NCBI GenBank assembly: GCA_003232015.1
Contig: QIKU01000106.1
Span: forward strand, 1 to 8,806
Direction: 5' to 3'
DNA length: 8,806 nt
DNA from: Gammaproteobacteria bacterium
GTDB taxonomy: Bacteria > Pseudomonadota > Gammaproteobacteria > UBA6429
Below, one piece after another: positions 1-8,806 of the stretch. Made by a program: the position numbers and the translations under genes. The notes beneath the pieces were generated by a model, which was given only the letters and a program-made list of their open reading frames with translations, did no database searches and was not told where the DNA came from. The first letter of the stretch is position 1. Each line of letters starts with the position of its first letter.

Positions 1-361
1 GTAAAACACTATCTTTCCCCATCTCGGAAAGCAGCGATTTGGGCAAACCGCGTGTTTCAGGCCCAAACAGGAAGGCATCGCCTTCTTTAAAGACCGTGTC
101 ATACACACTTTTTACGCCGTGTGTCGATAAGCCAAAAATACGTGCCGGTTTTGCACGCGCCATATAATCCTCTAAATTGGCATAGGTTTTGACGCTGGCA
201 TACTCATCGTAGTCCAGACCCGCACGGCGCAGGCGCTTGTCGTCCAGCTCAAAACCCAACGGTTCAATAAGGTGCAAATGGCAGCCCGTATTGGCACACA
301 GGCGGATAATATTACCGGTGTTCGGCGGAATTTCAGGTTCAAATAAAACAATATCAAACAT
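1..361 (-). CDS. trmL: tRNA (cytidine(34)-2'-O)-methyltransferase TrmL, 3' end cut off by the window
   Basis: SPOUT-class methyltransferase that 2'-O-methylates the wobble nucleotide of certain leucine tRNAs, using S-adenosylmethionine, in the cytoplasm. The reverse complement opens with ATG at 361 and reads without a stop to base 1, giving the first 120 residues; the family is usually about 150-160 residues, so roughly the last quarter lies outside the window. Diagnostic stretches are [20 protein letters not shown] at the N-terminus (the family's N-PxNxGNIxR signature), RLCANTG at about residues 20-26, and [10 protein letters not shown] at about residues 98-107, which forms part of the trefoil-knot SAM site. 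The start has only a weak ribosome binding site (GAAG about 9 bases upstream). It is transcribed divergently from pyrD. No key residue is missing in the visible part. Family assignment is firm. Confidence 0.93.
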
Positions 362-378
362 AATTTTTACTTCATTAT

Positions 379-407
379 TAAACAAACGCCACAATACCCT
401 TTATAAT
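379..407 (+). promoter_or_regulatory. candidate sigma70-type promoter for pyrD
   Basis: A perfect TATAAT (402-407) is preceded at 17-base spacing by TAAACA (379-384), which matches four positions of the -35 consensus. Transcription would start near 413-414, downstream of the ATG at 408. If real, this promoter excludes 408 as the start codon of its own transcript and favours TTG at 441. It overlaps the candidate trmL promoter. Confidence 0.4.
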
Positions 408-420
408 ATGGTACTTACAA
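391..420 (-). promoter_or_regulatory. candidate sigma70-type promoter for trmL
   Basis: On the minus strand, TTGTAA (415-420) and TATTGT (391-396) lie 18 bases apart, about 30 bases upstream of the trmL ATG. Each hexamer matches the consensus at four positions. The element overlaps the candidate pyrD promoter on the opposite strand. This is a reading by eye in AT-rich DNA, so it is tentative. Confidence 0.3.
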
Positions 421-440
421 TCACATTCTGGACAAACAGC

Positions 441-1379
<939 letters not shown>

Positions 1380-1412
1380 ACTAAAACTCAATTAAGCTAC
1401 TTTGAATTGTCA

Positions 1413-2123
1413 CTAATCGAAATGTGCCGGCTCAATATGTGAACTAATAAAGGCTTCCGCATCGTTCAATATTTCTTTTGCCTTGCGGCCTTTGGTGGGA
1501 ATGGCTTTACCAATGTGAATGGTGATTAAGCCCGGTTTTTTTATAAAGCCACGCTTTGGCCAGTAGTAACCGGCATTATGTGCAACCGGCACAACGGGGT
1601 AACCGCTTTTTTCGGCCAGTATGCCACCGCCTCTTTTATATTCCACTTTAGCATCGGGTGCGATGCGGGTGCCCTCTGGAAAGATAATAACCACAATATT
1701 TTCTTTTAAGCGCTGCGTACCCTTTTCTATTAACTGTTTTAATGCAAAGCGCCCTGTTCCTCTTTTAACGGCCACTGGCTTTAACATGGCCAAAGCCCAA
1801 CCAAAGAAAGGCACGTATAATAATTCCTTTTTTATCACGAACGATAGTGGTGGGAATATTAACTGCAAGGCCATTGTTTCCCAGGTCGACTGGTGACTGG
1901 AAAAAATAATAAAATTTTCATCAGGTATGTTTTCTCGCCCTTTAACTTCATAGCGAATACCACAAAGCACCCTTAAAGACCAGACATTAAAAACCGCATA
2001 GGTGCGTATAAGCTTAGAGCGTAGAGTAAAGGGAAATAAAACAAAAAAACTCGACCCCACTGTAACAATAATGGTGCTCACAATCATACCAATACTGAAT
2101 AACAACGAACGAAAAGCCTGCAT
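1413..2123 (-). CDS. plsC: 1-acyl-sn-glycerol-3-phosphate acyltransferase (PlsC/LPLAT family)
   Basis: Inner-membrane enzyme expected to transfer an acyl chain to position 2 of lysophosphatidic acid, giving phosphatidic acid for phospholipid synthesis. It has 236 residues, normal for the family. A hydrophobic N-terminal segment (about residues 8-32) should anchor it in the membrane. The catalytic block is SSHQSTWETM (75-84). His77 is followed at the HX4D position by Glu82 instead of Asp, a variant I recall in many gammaproteobacterial homologues, so probably functional. The substrate-binding block is IFPEGTR (147-153), followed by KRGGG (163-167) and VPVAHNAG (178-185). It is the last gene of the minus-strand block, 12 bases after gmhB. 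No convincing terminator was found in the 33 bases to pyrD. A related role, such as acylating another lysolipid, cannot be excluded. Confidence 0.9.
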   Translation of the reverse strand: MQAFRSLLFSIGMIVSTIIVTVGSSFFVLFPFTLRSKLIRTYAVFNVWSLRVLCGIRYEVKGRENIPDENFIIFSSHQSTWETMALQLIFPPLSFVIKKELLYVPFFGWALAMLKPVAVKRGTGRFALKQLIEKGTQRLKENIVVIIFPEGTRIAPDAKVEYKRGGGILAEKSGYPVVPVAHNAGYYWPKRGFIKKPGLITIHIGKAIPTKGRKAKEILNDAEAFISSHIEPAHFD

Positions 2124-2135
2124 AGTTTTTTATCT

Positions 2136-2672
2136 TTATTCTACAATAGAGTTAACATAATCAGCCAAAGAATCATAAACTGGAATACCGCTTATTTCTT
2201 TAGTATGGTTTTTAATCGTGCGCTCACCTTTACCGGTTTTAACCAGTATCGGTTTTGCATTTACAGTTATTGCGGCCTGCAAATCCCGCAGTGAATCACC
2301 AACAACGGTCACTTTACTTAAATCGACATCAAAACGTTTGGCAATATCCAGGTACATACCCGGCTTTGGTTTGCGGCAATGGCAGTCATCGTCTGGCCCA
2401 TGCGGACAGTAAAAAATACCATCTAAATGTGTGCCTTCATTTTGCAACAGGCGACTCAGTTTGTCATGCATCCGATGCAAGGTATCTAAGTCATATAAGC
2501 CACGCGCAATACCCGATTGATTGGTTGCAACAACAATGCGGTAACCGGCCTGTTTTAGTTTTGCGATGGCTGCCAGACTGCCTTCCAGAGGAATAAATTC
2601 TTCGGGCGATTTTATGTAATCATCCGAGTCTTCATTGATAACACCATCGCGATCCAGGATTATAAATTTCAT
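2136..2672 (-). CDS. gmhB: D-glycero-beta-D-manno-heptose-1,7-bisphosphate 7-phosphatase
   Basis: HAD-superfamily phosphatase that removes the 7-phosphate from heptose bisphosphate in ADP-heptose synthesis for the LPS inner core; cytoplasmic. It has 178 residues, normal for GmhB. HAD motif I is ILDRDGVIN (5-13), with nucleophile Asp7 and acid/base Asp9. Motif II is ATNQSG (49-54). The lysine of motif III lies in RKPKPGM (100-106), and motif IV is VVGDSLRD (123-130). The zinc-binding loop that separates GmhB from other HAD enzymes is present as Cys89-x-His91 and Cys97-x-Cys99; it is the short-loop version, shorter than in E. coli. It lies 9 bases after the MazG-like gene and 12 before plsC, so co-transcription is likely. 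The related histidinol-phosphatase is less likely because this protein has no fused dehydratase and sits in a gmhB-typical context. Confidence 0.93.
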   Translation of the reverse strand: MKFIILDRDGVINEDSDDYIKSPEEFIPLEGSLAAIAKLKQAGYRIVVATNQSGIARGLYDLDTLHRMHDKLSRLLQNEGTHLDGIFYCPHGPDDDCHCRKPKPGMYLDIAKRFDVDLSKVTVVGDSLRDLQAAITVNAKPILVKTGKGERTIKNHTKEISGIPVYDSLADYVNSIVE

Positions 2673-2681
2673 ATTTACAAC

Positions 2682-3011
2682 TTAATCTCTAAATTCTGAC
2701 ACGCGAATTTTGCCATTAATCATTTTTGATTCACGCTGCATTATTTTATCCATTTTTTTCCAGAACGCATCTTTTAAATCAAACTCAGCGGCTATTGCCG
2801 TACCCAGTAGCAAAATATAAAGATCAGCCACTTCTTCGGCTAAATCTTCCTTGCTTTTACCTTTAGTAATGGCAGAGGAAATTTCGCCCAGCTCTTCAGC
2901 CATTAAAGCAACACGGTAAGGCAAGTCCTCACCGCCGCTGTTTTTAAAGTCGTGCTTGTCATGAAAGGCCTGAACTTTTGCAAGCATTGCATCGTAAGAG
3001 TCAATATTCAT
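2682..3011 (-). CDS. MazG-like nucleotide pyrophosphohydrolase
   Basis: Small all-alpha NTP pyrophosphatase of the MazG/PRA-PH type, expected to hydrolyse a nucleoside triphosphate or a related pyrophosphate. The substrate cannot be read from sequence; cleansing of the nucleotide pool is the usual assumption. The 109 residues correspond to a single MazG core. The magnesium-binding acidic residues are visible: AEELGEI (38-44), with Glu39, Glu40 and Glu43, and EEVADLYILL (59-68), with Glu60 and Asp63. A basic C-terminal part follows, with KMDKIMQRESK at about 86-96. It lies 28 bases after glyS and 9 before gmhB on the same strand. The start ATG at 3011 is preceded by GGAT about 8 bases upstream. 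The gene is not part of the glyQ-glyS-gmhB-plsC core I know from Pseudomonas, so it may be a lineage-specific insertion in the operon. The fold assignment is good; the function is open. Confidence 0.8.
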   Translation of the reverse strand: MNIDSYDAMLAKVQAFHDKHDFKNSGGEDLPYRVALMAEELGEISSAITKGKSKEDLAEEVADLYILLLGTAIAAEFDLKDAFWKKMDKIMQRESKMINGKIRVSEFRD

Positions 3012-3039
3012 CTGTTTTATCCAAATTTATTTTTTGCCG

Positions 3040-5106
3040 CTATAACTTTGATAAATCCGCTATTTGCATAAACAAATTGCGTAAATTATTTAACAAAGCA
3101 ATCCGGTTATTTCGTACGGCTTCATCATCGTCCATAACCATTACATTATCAAAGAAAGCATCAACCGGCTCACGTAATTCGGCCAACTGATTCAAAGCTT
3201 GTTCATACTCGGATGCTTTAATGCTTTGCTGTACTTTGTCACTTAAATTATTTAAGGTCGCGAAGAAGATTTTTTCTGCATCGTCAGATAATAATTTTTC
3301 ATTAATACTCGATGGCAGCTCACCTTTTATTTTCTTCAATATATTACCGCTGCGCTTATTAGCAGCAGCTAAACTTTTTGCGGCAGGCAAAGCCATAAAA
3401 GCATTGACGGCATGCACACGCTTATTCAGGTCGACCGGATTAGTTGGCTTAATGGCTAAAACAGACTGAATAACATCCACTTCAATATTTTGATCATGAT
3501 AGTAAGCACTTAGCCGGTCTAAACAATAATCAAATACCAGTGGAATGGCTTTAGCTGCCTCTATTTTTTTATCGAAATTTGCAGCCGCCTGCGTGAGCAG
3601 TTCTTTTAAGTCGATATCGAGATTTTTTTCAATTAATATTCTGAGCACGCCCAGGGCTGCGCGTCGTAAGGCGAAGGGATCTTTAACACCCGTTGGGATT
3701 TGCCCGATAGCAAATATACCCATTAATGTATCCACCCTGTCAGCCAGTGCAACGGACTGACTAACATAAGTGGTGGGCAAGGTATCACCCGCAAAACGTG
3801 GTTTGTAATAATCATCCAGTGCATCGGCAACTTGCGCATCTTCGCCGTCATGCTGTGCATAATAGCGCCCCATTACGCCTTGCAAGCTGGGCAGTTCACC
3901 CACCATATCGGTGAGTAAATCGCACTTACATAATTCGGCGGCACGTTGCGCCAGCACATCATTTTCACCTAACTGTTTTGCTATCCAGGCCGATAAGGTT
4001 TTAACGCGTTGGGTTTTATCATACAGCGTACCGAGCTGTTTTTGAAAAACAACAGATTTTAAACGCGCTAATTGTGACTCCAGTTTTACTTTACGATCCT
4101 GATTCCAGAAAAATTCCGCGTCAGCAAAACGTGGGCGAATCACACGCTCATTACCTTCGCTGACCTGAACAGGATCTTTACTTTCTATATTGCTGATCGT
4201 AATAAAGTGTGGCATCAGCTTGCCGTTCGCATCTTCCAGGTGAAAATACTTCTGGTTTAACTTCATGGTGTAAATAAGCGCTTCTTGTGGCACGTCTAAA
4301 AAACGTTCTTCAAAATTACCTTTGACTGCAACGGGCCATTCAACCATTGCGGTAACTTCATCTAACAAATTTTCATCAATCACGGCGGTGGCTTTGGACT
4401 CAGCCGCAATAGCTTCGATTTGCCCGCGGATTATTTCTTTACGTGTATTAAAATCGGCAATGACCCTGCCTTTATTTTTTAACCGCTGTTCATAGTCGGC
4501 TGGTTTTCTAATACTGATCGCCACAGGTGCATGAAAGCGATGACCATAAGTTTGACCGCCCGAATGCACCGATAAAATATCACAATCAACAACCTTGTTA
4601 TTAAACAACACCATCACCCATTGTACAGGGCGAACAAACTGTGCGTCTAAATCACCCCAGCGCATTCTTTTTGCGATGGGTAATTTATCCAGTGCGGTTT
4701 TAATAATGTCGGCTAACAGTTGTTGCGTTTCTTTACCAGCCTGCTGTGCGCGGTACATAAGCCAGGTGCCTTTATCGGTTTCCAGTTTTTCTAAATTTGC
4801 AACATCAACACCACAGGATTTTGCAAAACCCTGTACGGCTTTGGTTGGGTTACCGTCTGCATCGTAAGCCGCTTTTAATGCGGGGCCACGCTTTTCAACT
4901 TCTTTGTCGGCCTGTTTTACTTCTAACGCTTCTATCCATATTGCTAAACGCCGAGGCGTTGCATATGAATGCACGGCTCCATAATTTAAACTTGCTTCAT
5001 CTAACAAAGTGCTTACATTTTTAGTAAAAGCATTGGATAAGGTTAACAATGCGGTTGGTGGTAACTCTTCAGTACCAATTTCTATTAACAGCTCACTGGT
5101 TTTCAT
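3040..5106 (-). CDS. glyS: glycine--tRNA ligase beta subunit
   Basis: Beta subunit of the bacterial alpha2beta2 glycyl-tRNA synthetase, which charges tRNA-Gly in the cytoplasm. The beta subunit recognises and binds the tRNA and works only with GlyQ. It has 688 residues, almost the same as the E. coli protein. The N-terminus [13 protein letters not shown] (5-17) and the following ATPRRLAIW (about 50-58) are typical of the family. An HD-like region lies in the middle (around [16 protein letters not shown]). The C-terminal end, with [16 protein letters not shown], is the DALR-type anticodon-binding domain. The ATG overlaps the glyQ stop in a 4-base ATGA, which indicates translational coupling and matches the equal stoichiometry the enzyme needs. 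No frameshift or internal stop is present. Confidence 0.97.
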
Positions 5107-6011
5107 TGCGCACTCACTTTAGCTTTATTGCTATTACTGCAAAGCGGGAAACCCAGTTCTTCGCGACGCGCATGATACGCTTCTGCTACCGCGCGCGATA
5201 AATTTCGGATGCGTAATATAAAGCGCTGCCGTTCCGTTACCGAAATGGCGTGACGCGCATCGAGTAAATTAAATGTATGCGATGCCGTTAACATTTGTTC
5301 ATAGGCTGGTAAGGGTAAATCTTTTTCGATTAAAGACTGGCTTTGTGTTTCGCACTGGTCGAATTGCTTAAACAGTTCTTCTACATTGGCGTGTTCAAAG
5401 TTATAGGCTGACTGTTCCACTTCGTTCTGATGAAACACGTCACCATAAGTCACCACGCCTTGCGGGCCTTCGGTCCAGACCAGATCAAATAAACTTTTTA
5501 CACCTTGCAGGTACATGGCAATGCGTTCCAGGCCATAAGTGATTTCACCGGTAACCGGCTTACATTCCAAACCACCCACTTGCTGAAAATAAGTAAACTG
5601 GGTAACTTCCATGCCATTGAGCCAGACTTCCCAGCCCAGCCCCCAGGCGCCCAGCGTAGGTGATTCCCAGTTGTCTTCGACAAAACGAACATCATGCACC
5701 AGCGTATCAATGCCCAGCATTTCGAGCGAGCCCAGATATAATTCCTGTATATTTTTGGGTGACGGCTTAAGCATGACCTGAAACTGATAATAGTGCTGCA
5801 GGCGGTTCGGGTTTTCACCATAACGGCCATCGGTGGGTCGCCGACAGGGCTGTACATAGGCCGTATTCCAGGGCTCGGGGCCAATCGCACGCAAGAAAGT
5901 GGCGGGGTGGAAAGTACCTGCGCCCATTTCCATGTCATAGGGCTGTAAAATTACGCAGCCCTGATCTGCCCAATACTGTTGCAAGGACATTATAAGTTGT
6001 TGAAAAGTCAT
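5103..6011 (-). CDS. glyQ: glycine--tRNA ligase alpha subunit
   Basis: Catalytic class II subunit of the heterotetrameric glycyl-tRNA synthetase, which activates glycine with ATP and joins it to tRNA-Gly. It has 302 residues, against about 303 in E. coli. The N-terminal [20 protein letters not shown] (19-38) is near-diagnostic. Class II motif 2 is seen in [19 protein letters not shown] (57-75), and motif 3 in [16 protein letters not shown] (155-170), where the arginine contacts ATP. It is the first gene of the minus-strand block and overlaps glyS by 4 bases. A candidate promoter lies 54-84 bases upstream of the start. The ribosome binding site before ATG 6011 is weak (GGA about 10 bases upstream), but the start fits the family alignment. 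Confidence 0.97.
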
Positions 6012-6064
6012 TAATTTTTATCCGTTGTCTTTATTACGGTATTTAAAGTCAGTGTTATTGCCGC

Positions 6065-6095
6065 ATTATACCTGAAACCATTATTGGTCGATCAA
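6065..6095 (-). promoter_or_regulatory. candidate sigma70-type promoter for the glyQ-glyS-MazG-gmhB-plsC block
   Basis: On the minus strand, a perfect TATAAT (6065-6070) follows TTGATC (6090-6095) after 19 bases, a little longer than the ideal 17. The predicted start near 6058 would give a leader of about 47 bases before the glyQ ATG. No T-box or attenuator-like structure is evident in that leader. Confidence 0.45.
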
Positions 6096-6258
6096 TCCCG
6101 GTGTAAAATTGCCACTTAATCTTGACGAAAGAGCCACTGCTTGCCAAAATTTTGCTGAAACAGCAGAAATAATACCTCTCAAATTGTGAAGCAGGTCTCG
6201 AAACCGGCGACCATATCGAAATTAAACTGAAATTACTGCGCCGATGGCTATCTGTTGT

Positions 6259-6287
6259 TTGATTATTATCCATCGCTCCGATACTGT
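6259..6287 (+). promoter_or_regulatory. candidate promoter for the TlpA-DUF4266-DUF3570-ApbE cluster
   Basis: TTGATT (6259-6264) and TACTGT (6282-6287) lie 17 bases apart. The -35 matches four consensus positions and the -10 matches three. A start near 6293-6295 would give a leader of about 75 bases that includes the inverted repeat at 6317-6344. This is weak on sequence alone. Confidence 0.3.
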
Positions 6288-6316
6288 AAAAGAAAAATAA
6301 TTTTCCAGCACATATT

Positions 6317-6344
6317 CTTTACTTAGCCCTTCAAGTAAGTAAAG
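6317..6344. repeat. perfect 9-bp inverted repeat in the leader of the redox cluster
   Basis: CTTTACTTA (6317-6325) and TAAGTAAAG (6336-6344) are exact reverse complements separated by 10 bases. The right arm ends 11 bases before the ribosome binding site of the TlpA-like gene. No T-run follows on either strand, so it does not look like an intrinsic terminator. It could be a dyad operator for a dimeric regulator or an mRNA leader hairpin. The pairing is seen directly; the role is inference. Confidence 0.6.
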
Positions 6345-6368
6345 CCGCTTTTATCGGGAAGAAGTTAA

Positions 6369-6860
6369 ATGCAAAAATATATTCGTTTTCTGCTGTTATT
6401 AGTGGTCACTTTTTATAGTACAGCGACGCTTGCGGCAAAAGGGACTTACCCTTCTTTTAGTTTACCGGAATTTAGTGGCAATCAAAAAGTTGAATTAGCA
6501 AAACTACGCGGTAAGGTTGTGTACATTGATTTCTGGGCTTCATGGTGTGCACCCTGCCGACAGTCTATGCCAAAATTTAATGTACTTTATAATAAACTGC
6601 CCCGCGCAAGTTTTGAAATTCTGGCCATCAACCTTGATGAATCAAAAACTGACGCACAACAATTTCTTAATGACTACCCTGTTGACTACACAGTGCTGTA
6701 TGACGCAACGGGTGCCACACCGAAACAGTTCGGTGTAAAAGTGATGCCGACCGGTTACCTGCTGGATCGATTTGGCATGGTGCGCCATGTACATCAGGGT
6801 TTTCGTAGTGGCGATGACAGGCTGTTAATGAATGAAATTAAAAAATTACTTTCGGAATAA
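6369..6860 (+). CDS. exported TlpA-like thioredoxin-fold protein
   Basis: Thiol-disulfide oxidoreductase of the TlpA/ResA type, expected in the periplasm. Residues 1-23 form a Sec signal peptide: Lys3 and Arg6, then a hydrophobic core FLLLLVVTF, ending in TLAA with cleavage likely near residue 22 or 23. The mature part carries the thioredoxin core with FWASWCAPCRQSMPKF (55-70), active-site pair Cys60 and Cys63, and the cis-proline loop VMPTGYLLD (125-133) with Pro127. Length 163 is normal for the family. The start ATG has a strong ribosome binding site, GGGAAGAAG, 4 bases upstream. It is the first gene of the cluster; the DUF4266-type lipoprotein starts 15 bases after its stop. Its neighbours suggest a dedicated partner, most obviously the terminal Cys-x-Cys of that lipoprotein. 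General cytochrome c maturation or Dsb roles are possible, but no cytochrome genes are nearby. Confidence 0.88.
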   Translation: MQKYIRFLLLLVVTFYSTATLAAKGTYPSFSLPEFSGNQKVELAKLRGKVVYIDFWASWCAPCRQSMPKFNVLYNKLPRASFEILAINLDESKTDAQQFLNDYPVDYTVLYDATGATPKQFGVKVMPTGYLLDRFGMVRHVHQGFRSGDDRLLMNEIKKLLSE

Positions 6861-6875
6861 AAGAGGCTGCTTAAA

Positions 6876-7088
6876 ATGATAATCCGTATCAGTTTATTGT
6901 TGTTTGCACTGTTAGCGTCAGCCTGTAGCACGACCATTCAACCATGGGAACGTGGCACACTGGCAAAACCTGAAATGCAATGGGTAAGCGATGCACAGGG
7001 CTTTGCTTTATCAAAGCATGTTTACTTTAGTAAAGAAGGCAGTAATGGTGGCTCGATGGTTGTAGGCGGTGGCTGCGGCTGCAATTAA
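6876..7088 (+). CDS. small DUF4266-type lipoprotein with C-terminal GGGCGCN
   Basis: A 70-residue predicted lipoprotein of unknown function that I recognise as the DUF4266 type. A short signal peptide (residues 1-16, core ISLLLFALL) ends in a lipobox read as ASAC, with the lipidated cysteine at position 17. Position -3 is Ala instead of the usual Leu. The mature form would be about 54 residues. It contains PWERGTLAKPEM (23-34), a His/Lys-containing stretch ALSKHVYFSKEG (44-55), a Gly-rich linker, and ends in GGGCGCN (64-70), placing Cys67 and Cys69 almost at the C-terminus. There is no Asp at +2 (Ser18 follows Cys17), so outer-membrane sorting is expected. AAGAGG (6861-6866) is a good ribosome binding site. 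It lies 15 bases after the TlpA-like gene and 6 before the barrel gene. The Cys pair could be a substrate of the thioredoxin or a metal or cofactor ligand; this is inference. Confidence 0.82.
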   Translation: MIIRISLLLFALLASACSTTIQPWERGTLAKPEMQWVSDAQGFALSKHVYFSKEGSNGGSMVVGGGCGCN

Positions 7089-7094
7089 AACAAT

Positions 7095-8258
7095 ATGGCC
7101 TCGTCTAACAATAAAAACAAAACCGCGCTAGCTGCTTTAACGGCAAGTGCTTTGGCACTCCCCGCTTTTCAGACTATAGCGGCCACCGCGCCAACTGAAG
7201 CTGAAGTCGGCTACCGATACAGTTCCTACGAAGAGGATGACGCACCTGCTTCCCTTGTTGCAACTGGCGACACCAAAAGATACACCATTGATACACAGCA
7301 GTTTCGTTTGCTGTCACCCGTCGGGAAAAATTTTAGTGTAAGCCTGGATATACTCACCGAAACCATGAGTGGCGCCTCACCAATGGGCACCCAGGAAGGC
7401 TCAGGTGGCGAGCCTCAACTGGTCATGAGCGGTGCCAGCATTAGCGAAGATCGTGAAGATGTCAGGGCAAACGTTACACATTATGGCAATAGCGTTACAA
7501 CCAGCATCACCGCCGGACAGTCGAATGAAAATGATTATGCTGCAACCTATTACGGTGCAGGCTGGGAATGGGTATTCAATCAGAAAAATTCGGCCTTTCA
7601 ATTCGCAATGAGCCGTTCCGATGATAAAATTACCCCCACCGATGCGCTCCTGTTTGGCCGTATTCAAAGTGCAAGTAAAAATACAACCGGGATAAGCCTG
7701 GGGTTGTCTCAGGTACTCAGCAAAACTAAACTTATTCAGTTTGGTCTGGAACTGTCACAGGACAAGGGCTATCTGGCCGCCCCCTATAAAACTGACGACG
7801 TACGCCCCGGCAGTCGCACGCGCACGGCAGCTGTAATGCGCTACCGTCATTTTTCACCTGAAAGTAACGGTGCCCTGCATTTTGATTATCGCTATTATTG
7901 GGATGACTGGGATGTCAGCTCACATACTTTTGCCCTCGCCTGGTATAAAAATGTAACCAGCCGGTTTCAGTTAATTCCCTCGGTACGCTACTATTCACAA
8001 ACCGAAGCCAGTTTTTATGAACCTTATAAAGTGGCAGCCAACACCAATCCTTATTATTCCAGCGACTATCGGCTTTCACCTTATGGCGCCATCTCCGTTG
8101 GCTTGCAATTAGTGCATAACTTCAAGCGCTGGTCCTATACCGCAAAAATTGAACGCTACGAAGCCGATGCCGATTACTCCTTAGGAAAAGTAGTAGTAGA
8201 AAACCCCGGCCTGGTCAGCTTTACTCTTATTACTGCTGGCTTTAATATTAAATTCTAA
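7095..8258 (+). CDS. DUF3570-type outer-membrane beta-barrel protein
   Basis: Predicted outer-membrane barrel of unknown function, 387 residues, which I recognise as the DUF3570 type. The N-terminus has lysines at 7 and 9, then a hydrophobic stretch ALAALTASALALPAF (11-25), consistent with a signal peptide cleaved near residue 29 or 30. The remainder shows alternating, aromatic-rich strands, for example DYRYYWDDWDV (264-274), PSVRYYSQTEASFY (295-308) and RLSPYGAISVGLQL (326-339). It ends in GFNIKF with the terminal Phe typical of barrels recognised by the BAM machinery. It contains no cysteine. Two identical MSGAS pentapeptides at 91-95 and 111-115 flank a Gly-rich segment; the first fits an ApbE acceptor-like pattern (Glu89-x-x-Ser-Gly-Ala-Ser). 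The start has no clear ribosome binding site and lies 6 bases after the lipoprotein stop, so translation is probably coupled. The 68 bases to apbE show no terminator. Confidence 0.85.
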   Translation: MASSNNKNKTALAALTASALALPAFQTIAATAPTEAEVGYRYSSYEEDDAPASLVATGDTKRYTIDTQQFRLLSPVGKNFSVSLDILTETMSGASPMGTQEGSGGEPQLVMSGASISEDREDVRANVTHYGNSVTTSITAGQSNENDYAATYYGAGWEWVFNQKNSAFQFAMSRSDDKITPTDALLFGRIQSASKNTTGISLGLSQVLSKTKLIQFGLELSQDKGYLAAPYKTDDVRPGSRTRTAAVMRYRHFSPESNGALHFDYRYYWDDWDVSSHTFALAWYKNVTSRFQLIPSVRYYSQTEASFYEPYKVAANTNPYYSSDYRLSPYGAISVGLQLVHNFKRWSYTAKIERYEADADYSLGKVVVENPGLVSFTLITAGFNIKF

Positions 8259-8326
8259 AACATTAAACTTCAGACGGTGATAGTATTTTTCCTTTAGACT
8301 TTATCGGTTAATCTTATCCACTGCTT

Positions 8327-8806
8327 ATGTCGCTTCAACAAATATCACATCACTTTCATGTTATGGGCGGGCCTGCTGAGTTACAGCTTTACCTCGACGC
8401 AGCAACACATGATCAAGCTCAGCTAATACAACTCGCAGAGTCTGAAGCCCGTCGGCTGGAAAAAAAATATTCACGCTACCGCGATGACAGTGTCACCAGC
8501 GCCATTAATAATGCAGCCAGCCAACCAAAAGGCATCATGGTTGATGACGAAACCGCAGCCTTGCTCAACTACGCACAACTCGCCTGGCAACAAAGCAACG
8601 GCTTGTTTGATATTACGTCCGGCGTATTACGCAAAGCATGGGACTTTAAATCAAACAAGCTGCCGAATAAAAAACAAATAACAAAACTATTAAACAATGT
8701 TGGCTGGCAAAAACTTTTATGGCAGCCCCCTATGTTACAGCTTCCAAAAGGAATGGAAGTAGACTTTGGCGGTGTTGTTAAAGAATATGCAGCCGATGCC
8801 ATCGCC
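8327..8806 (+). CDS. apbE: FAD:protein FMN transferase (ApbE family), N-terminal part, cut by the window end
   Basis: Magnesium-dependent enzyme that transfers FMN from FAD onto a Thr or Ser of a target protein. The frame from ATG 8327 stays open to the last base, giving 160 residues, about half of a normal ApbE. Family landmarks are HVMGGPAELQL (11-21), aligning with the usual MGT-type opening; EKKYSRYRDDSVTSAIN (45-61); SNGLFDITSGVL (90-101); and MEVDFGGVVKEYAAD (143-157), the flavin-binding glycine stretch. No signal peptide or lipobox is present, and an in-frame TAA at 8309-8311 rules out a nearby upstream extension, so the visible form appears cytoplasmic. Many ApbE proteins are exported, so this is notable beside three exported neighbours. 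No good ribosome binding site precedes the ATG. The catalytic C-terminal half cannot be judged here. Confidence 0.92.
   Translation, partial: MSLQQISHHFHVMGGPAELQLYLDAATHDQAQLIQLAESEARRLEKKYSRYRDDSVTSAINNAASQPKGIMVDDETAALLNYAQLAWQQSNGLFDITSGVLRKAWDFKSNKLPNKKQITKLLNNVGWQKLLWQPPMLQLPKGMEVDFGGVVKEYAADAIA

Follow-up and report, generated by a model that had tools for sequence, protein, structure and literature searches.

The DUF3570 cluster and its published relatives

The 8,806-nucleotide stretch of DNA analysed here (the window; contig QIKU01000106.1 of a Gammaproteobacteria bacterium, assembly GCA_003232015.1) ends in four open reading frames (ORFs) on the + strand, which encode a TlpA/ResA-like thioredoxin, a DUF4266 lipoprotein, a DUF3570 protein predicted to form a flavin-carrying outer-membrane barrel, and the beginning of a flavin mononucleotide (FMN) transferase of the ApbE family (Table 1). 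The genes are separated by gaps of 15, 6 and 68 bases. ORFs, Pfam matches and a reading of the sequence agree with the original prediction, made from the sequence alone, on the four genes, their coordinates and gaps, on the WCAPC motif of the thioredoxin, the CGCN end of DUF4266 and a cysteine-free DUF3570 ending in phenylalanine; both SGAS motifs of DUF3570 had been missed. No terminator-like site was found on the + strand in the gap between DUF3570 and ApbE (8259-8326), and promoter- and terminator-like matches in 6000-8806 did not exceed chance level. The window end cuts the ApbE gene, and the 160 residues present match PF02424 with 107 bits (cutoff 25.6), the domain beginning at residue 13. 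The nearest genome relative (locus L001, sampled a second time as L103) has the same gene order, a near-identical ApbE N-terminus and a complete ApbE of 291 amino acids, followed on the 3' side by a PSCyt3/DUF1592-similar protein with two CxxCH motifs and by a DUF1501 protein, whose Tat-signal match is weak and under the cutoff. The thioredoxin belongs to the Pfam families Redoxin/AhpC-TSA; its best NCBIfam scores, ResA with 99 bits (cutoff 170) and TlpA with 71 bits (cutoff 230), lie below the cutoffs, and we describe it as working like a TlpA-fold thioredoxin and claim no membership of the TlpA or ResA equivalog families.

Table 1. Features of the cluster, in window positions.
Feature	Position	Strand	Basis
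TlpA/ResA-like thioredoxin with signal peptide	6369..6860	+	ORF; Pfam Redoxin, 82 bits
WCAPC of the thioredoxin (codons 59-63)	6543-6557	+	read from sequence
DUF4266 lipoprotein	6876..7088	+	Pfam PF14086, 74 bits (cutoff 27)
Lipobox Cys17 (lipid Cys) of DUF4266	6924-6926	+	read from sequence
CGCN C-terminus of DUF4266	7074-7085	+	read from sequence
DUF3570, predicted 16-strand outer-membrane barrel and flavinylation substrate	7095..8258	+	Pfam PF12094, 208 bits (cutoff 25); AlphaFold2 (AF2) model; barrel matches
DUF3570 signal peptide ALAALTASALALPAF, weakly hydrophobic, conserved	7095..7184	+	cleavage site placed by eye
Flavinylation motif 1, SGAS, residues 92-95, predicted FMN on Ser95	7368..7379	+	motif rule of PMC8238504 and PMC12052999
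Flavinylation motif 2, SGAS, residues 112-115, predicted FMN on Ser115, also in loop L2	7428..7439	+
ApbE, N-terminal 160 residues, gene cut by window end	8327..8806	+	Pfam PF02424

Clusters of ApbE, DUF3570, a thioredoxin and DUF4266, with or without DsbD, have been described by Meheust et al. 2021 (PMC8238504); among those with a DsbD gene, 227 contain DUF3570, 183 a thioredoxin-like PF13899 protein and 221 DUF4266, and 316 published clusters lack DsbD. As judged from its sequence, the window cluster is a member of this type: the same four families lie adjacent (the full-length ApbE being visible in the relative L103), DUF3570 carries two [S/T]GA[S/T] motifs (residues 92-95 and 112-115) and DUF4266 ends in CxC. 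DsbD was not found in the window or in the stretches of L001/L103 and L002. The published thioredoxin is assigned to PF13899, whereas that of the window matches Redoxin/AhpC-TSA best, and the main text of the paper does not use the word 'barrel', whereas the window DUF3570 is modelled as one. As far as the available parts of that paper go, an ApbE without signal peptide, an altered ApbE active site and the class B operon described below are not treated. In the open-licence literature outside bioRxiv, the names DUF3570 and DUF4266 were found only in this paper, which had already given DUF3570 a role, so that the earlier view of a family without assigned function does not hold for DUF3570. We did not find in that literature the topology of the barrel, the Gly/Cys ApbE subfamily lacking a signal or the division into two classes, which the present analysis adds. 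Another paper names the outer membrane once as a location of flavinylated domains, in its available parts with no reference to DUF3570 or a barrel (PMC11334425).

Recurrence of the cluster and two classes of DUF3570 loci

Three sets of loci were surveyed. Set 1 (L001-L080) holds the best 80 of at least 442 DUF4266 loci and is biased to the DUF4266 of the window; L032 and L034 are 99% identical, and L003 lacks DUF3570 due to a contig end. Set 2 is fairer: an even sample of 185 genomes from the class of the relative yielded 45 with DUF3570, and 60 loci were fetched, of which 56 were scored, leaving out L103 (the same locus as L001) and L102, L104 and L108 (DUF3570 shorter than 300 amino acids) as well as fragment matches in G088 (two), G148 (one) and G149:C7 (one). 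Set 3 comprises 19 loci from the phylum of genome G004 and of the Polyangia locus L046, which we take to be Myxococcota, and one from the Eisenbacteria genome of L035; the phylum part covers the 20 places with the highest scores except G242:C106, which lies at a contig end, and 36 of 112 genomes were positive. DUF3570 is present at 78 of the 80 loci of set 1, and 59 of these have ApbE within 2 kb and 70 a thioredoxin within 3 kb. Around the 56 DUF3570 genes of set 2, DUF4266 lies within 2 kb in 52 cases and a thioredoxin within 3 kb in 46, whereas ApbE occurs within 2 kb in 17 and within 8.5 kb in 25; in set 3, all 20 loci contain DUF4266. A separate count across 249 genomes from the phylum of the relative gave 19 with DUF4266. 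Thus, the impression that these families recur as one unit was borne out, and so was the expected proximity of the thioredoxin to DUF3570, whereas ApbE is not universal: DUF4266 and DUF3570 form the constant core, and ApbE is its least constant companion.

The loci fall into two classes. In class A, to which the window belongs, loop L2 of DUF3570 is long and mostly carries SGAS/SGAT-type motifs. In class B, L2 is short with the pattern D-x-x-[ST]-x-A-S, and the gene mostly lies inside a long operon (for example, at L137, L127, L115, L130 and L132) encoding an HZS_alpha-like CxxCH lipoprotein (found at 33 loci), SH3/small barrel proteins, thioredoxin, DUF4266, DUF3570, TPR proteins and, in some, a MotA/TolQ/ExbB-type protein. 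The classes were assigned by operon genes in one count (28 versus 28) and by loop pattern in the others, and the counts differ slightly. By operon genes, ApbE lies within 2 kb at 15/28 class A but 2/28 class B loci of set 2, while class B retains DUF4266 (26/28) and thioredoxin (25/28); by loop pattern, the figures for sets 1 and 2 are 74/93 and 2/41. On a FastTree phylogeny with the loop columns removed (91 class A rows including the window, 41 class B rows; L084, L013 and L133 left out), the split corresponds to two changes, and the genome of the nearest relative contains one locus of each class (L103 and L137). Class B loci often lie beside divergent genes for CxxCH proteins (family c9 at 19 loci, c12 at 17) and for a twin-arginine protein (c21, at six); these have no Pfam match and, in our own reading, resemble the CxxCH/DUF1501 pair of class A.

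The idea that barrels without a canonical SGAS motif are flavinless was weakened, as 39 of 41 class B barrels keep D-x-x-[ST]-x-A-[ST], usually with the glycine replaced. In another flavinylation target, a glycine-to-alanine exchange left about half of the flavinylation (PMC12052999); class B barrels may therefore also be flavin-loaded.

DUF3570 as a predicted outer-membrane barrel with two flavin sites

The AF2 model of the window DUF3570 is a 16-strand barrel (pLDDT 90, pTM 0.85), and the even strand number, the aromatic C-terminus (Phe), the barrel fold matches and the export signal are those of an outer-membrane beta-barrel. The protein contains no cysteine, and at 111 of 134 loci DUF3570 has none beyond residue 45. 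In the model, both SGAS motifs are located in the connection of strand 3 to strand 4, away from the termini at the other end of the barrel; the two predicted flavin sites thus share one loop, L2, predicted to be extracellular. Conservation points to the same face: of 36 residues with at least 97% invariance, 34 fall into the extracellular loops or the outermost third of a strand, a region of 185 of the 357 scored positions; when the conservation profile was rotated, 1 of 356 shifts did equally well. Exactly two motifs are found in 110 of the 120 homologues listed (of 468), one in 8 and three in 2. Among the class A rows of sets 1 and 2, a canonical loop motif is present in 82/93 and at least two in 23/93, and one-site barrels predominate farther from the window.

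For the DUF3570 of Chlorobium luteolum, flavinylation at two [S/T]GA[S/T] motifs was demonstrated by co-expression with the cognate ApbE and was abolished only when both serines were replaced (PMC8238504). Since the window protein carries both SGAS motifs, it is the likely target of the cluster ApbE, in agreement with the earlier proposal that ApbE loads a protein of the cluster, and flavinylation of DUF3570 is well supported.

The signal peptide of class A DUF3570 is weak by hydropathy (maximum over 10 residues, mark 1.9). That of the window reaches 1.89, just below the mark, and its residues L15, A19 and P23 are at least 90% conserved among close relatives. The median is 2.03 in class A, of which 68/90 score positive, versus 2.64 in class B; in set 3, the four class A loci range from 1.42 to 1.94 and the 16 others from 2.06 to 3.24. 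If such a signal directs slow export after translation, an ApbE in the cytosol would have time to act.

An ApbE without signal peptide and with a probably altered triad

Characterised ApbEs are mostly periplasmic lipoproteins (PMC12052999). The window ApbE passes the domain cutoff; however, it has no N-terminal (lipoprotein) signal peptide. The original prediction had counted it among the envelope proteins; going by its N-terminus it is not one, and its place of action seems to be the cell interior. Class A ApbEs whose gene lies within 2 kb of a barrel gene share this property: 72 of 73 have no hydrophobic stretch before the domain anchor, and 59 have at most 30 residues preceding it. The single signal-positive protein, of the Asp type discussed below, belongs to the divergent locus L123. 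Their cluster partners are nearly always signal-positive (DUF4266 at 90/91 and thioredoxin at 75/78 class A loci). In class B of sets 1 and 2, 7 of 12 ApbEs have a signal-like stretch (L114, L115, L116, L127, L130, L132, L137), and those without a clear signal are of Burkholderiales type (L043, L049, L059, L066, L068). In these five, Glu occupies the position of the triad Asp, and Lys replaces the usual Thr. In set 3, the signal is absent from all four class A ApbEs and present in two of the four others (L154, L158).

In the same ApbE subfamily, the proposed Asp-Ser-His triad, as defined in PMC12052999, is altered. Across 92 aligned ApbEs, the Asp column contains Gly in 75, Asp in 10 and Glu in 7, and 73 of the 75 Gly-type proteins have a Cys four residues before this position. 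Of the 16 class B ApbEs, the nine with a signal-like stretch all have Asp, and the seven without all have Glu. Among the best 120 of 4339 ApbE homologues, 120 are of the Gly/Cys type and 119 have no signal-like stretch. A within-genome control covered 20 ApbE loci in eight genomes: the four beside DUF3570 and DUF4266 (two of which repeat L042 and L072) are of the Gly/Cys type without signal, whereas the other 16 comprise one Gly/Cys protein (L167, near a contig end) and 15 of the Asp type, 11 with a signal-like stretch, one with a twin-arginine-like signal by eye and three with none. Because the window ends before this site, the Gly/Cys type of its own ApbE is deduced from the close relative L103. 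There, the triad Ser and His are kept and Asp was found in neither of two alignments, the position being Gly in our own alignment and Thr in the HMMER alignment to FmnB, which is off by one column; Asp301 of FmnB was placed by counting along the alignment. Class A-type ApbEs thus share with periplasmic ApbE/FmnB transferases the PF02424 domain, the triad Ser and His and a GGxxKxxAxD-type motif, but differ in the missing signal peptide, the Gly in place of Asp and the conserved Cys.

The same flavinylated barrel could also arise if ApbE reached the periplasm by a route invisible to hydropathy and loaded its target there, as ApbEs normally do. The periplasmic location of most characterised ApbEs speaks for this, as do the clear signal peptides of the seven class B ApbEs named above, which are encoded in operons of gammaproteobacteria-type loci. 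We nevertheless consider this route unlikely, given the short N-termini of class A ApbEs and the lack of a hydrophobic stretch in all but one of them. Moreover, a cytosolic ApbE is known in Klebsiella (PMC12052999), which, like that of the window, has no signal peptide; its target, however, is a soluble fumarate reductase served by a cytoplasmic enzyme, whereas DUF3570 is exported.

The thioredoxin, DUF4266 and electron supply

Of 136 DUF4266 ORFs, 126 end in CGCN and 135 have CxC within the last eight residues; a C-terminal CxC is found in all 120 homologues listed (of 252). CGCY replaces CGCN at L084, L105, L123 and L158, and the end is CGCEQ at L111 and L113. The sole ORF without CxC in the last eight residues is that of L045 (99-320); this locus alone lacks DUF3570 although plenty of sequence is available downstream, and none was found elsewhere in its genome. 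This single case is possibly a broken copy. The AF2 model of DUF4266 was of too low quality to be drawn on (pLDDT 60, with values under 50 for most of the tail), and apparent DUF4266-DUF3570 fusions were not used as evidence for docking, since the long DUF4266 ORFs look like overlapping-frame extensions.

Cys-Gly-Cys disulphides have a redox potential near that of protein disulphide isomerase. The conserved Cys of class A ApbEs is predicted to be cytosolic, and the CGC end of DUF4266 would therefore be the obvious periplasmic partner of the thioredoxin, whose action on the CGCN cysteines is plausible. Redox cycling of the DUF4266 CXC motif was suggested by the authors who described the clusters (PMC8238504). 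A DsbD-type gene lies near seven loci of sets 1 and 2 and, at the Myxococcota-type loci L141, L142 and L144, upstream on the same strand, where unlabelled genes may intervene; in three relatives (G001, G002, G022), DsbD is encoded elsewhere in the genome.

Alternatively, thioredoxin and DUF4266 could be assembly or maturation factors that relay no electrons: the thioredoxin would keep the CGC thiols in the reduced state that DUF4266 needs for inserting or chaperoning the barrel, or for protecting its flavins. Both accompany class B barrels, in which the motif is modified and ApbE is mostly not nearby (DUF4266 26/28, thioredoxin 25/28, ApbE 2/28), and DUF4266 is a tiny protein with a Gly-rich tail modelled with low confidence. 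The DsbD-type genes near the seven loci and at the three Myxococcota-type loci, however, suggest a continuing supply of electrons, and together with the proposed CXC cycling they make a pure assembly role rather improbable. It is less probable still, to the point of being very unlikely, that the thioredoxin serves haem attachment to adjoining CxxCH cytochromes in a ResA/CcmG-like manner, with the cluster maturing a cytochrome system and DUF4266 acting as a metal or haem ligand. The two-CxxCH and DUF1501 proteins follow ApbE at L001 (= L103) and L002 and lie inside the cluster at L106, and HZS_alpha-like CxxCH proteins are encoded in the class B operons (33 loci), but the CxxCH family is found at only three distinct class A loci of sets 1 and 2, while the remaining loci mostly retain thioredoxin and DUF4266.

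Proposed mechanism

We propose that the cluster produces a doubly flavinylated outer-membrane barrel, which is loaded with FMN in the cytosol before export and fed with electrons by DsbD, the thioredoxin and the CGC lipoprotein, a reading that in our judgement has an even chance of being correct. Most likely in the cytosol, a dedicated ApbE of the signal-less subfamily would attach FMN to Ser95 and Ser115 of DUF3570; Sec would then export the loaded chain and BAM would fold it, which would leave both flavins on loop L2, at the barrel opening that faces the cell exterior. Electrons would probably pass from DsbD to the TlpA-like thioredoxin, on to the CGC end of DUF4266 and finally to the flavins of the barrel; the CxxCH protein that the nearest relatives encode beside ApbE is a candidate partner. 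Cytosolic loading is moderately supported by the properties of the class A ApbEs, and the relay and its direction are inferred. Outward metal reduction or iron assimilation seem the likeliest uses of the electron flow; a published association with VIT1 hints at the latter (PMC8238504). It is tempting to speculate further that the Gly/Cys ApbE subfamily fits FMN in the cytosol while the weak, conserved signal delays export until loading is complete, and that the barrel acts as a haem-free flavin electron gate with the CGC tail of DUF4266 reaching into its pore; this fuller version is doubtful.

Several observations weigh against the proposed mechanism. A thioredoxin is not found within 3 kb at 18 of 134 loci, some of them at contig ends, and no DsbD gene was found in the window or beside the clusters of its nearest relatives. 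With the triad Asp replaced, the activity of class A ApbEs is not certain. The signal-peptide calls were made by hydropathy and not by a trained predictor, and 22 of 90 class A DUF3570 proteins, as well as that of the window, fall below the mark of 1.9 applied there. The correlation between motif and ApbE, tried as proof of coupling, was rejected: it is strong when loci are counted singly (Fisher p 8e-10, n 112) and is lost on tree correction (independent pairs, median p 1). The class contrast in signal peptides shares this weakness except for the Myxococcota-type check, and the class contrasts reflect few evolutionary events. Titles and beginnings of abstracts in the open-licence literature yielded no precedent for an FMN-bearing chain passing through Sec and BAM, and we know of none.

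To our knowledge, the known outer-membrane electron conduits rely on haems. Flavins on an extracellular loop of the barrel itself would represent a second chemical solution to electron conduction across the outer membrane. MtrCAB porin-cytochrome conduits resemble the proposed system in having a large outer-membrane barrel proposed to place redox cofactors at the surface, and the likeness is one of fold: chain B of the Mtr complex 6r2q is among the Foldseek matches of DUF3570. Here, however, covalent flavins are predicted on the barrel itself, with neither haem inside nor sequence kinship shown; a multihaem gene was not seen in the window, and the relatives encode a two-CxxCH protein downstream. 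Cytosolic loading by ApbE would mean that Sec and BAM have to handle a chain with its cofactor already attached, and would revise the view that ApbE substrates destined for export receive their flavin outside the cytosol. Furthermore, DUF4266, with its almost invariant CGCN end, gains a testable role.

Neighbouring genes

Nine class A loci (L011, L012, L028, L029, L031, L033, L061, L078, L087) have two-component genes nearby, together with a cupredoxin-like gene and one or two genes whose products lack a Pfam match, which suggests metal or redox sensing. In the window, glyQ and glyS lie upstream of the cluster on the opposite strand; they belong to an ordinary neighbourhood (237-6011) that also encodes an acyltransferase, a HAD phosphatase, a MazG-like protein and, presumably, a dihydroorotate dehydrogenase-like protein.

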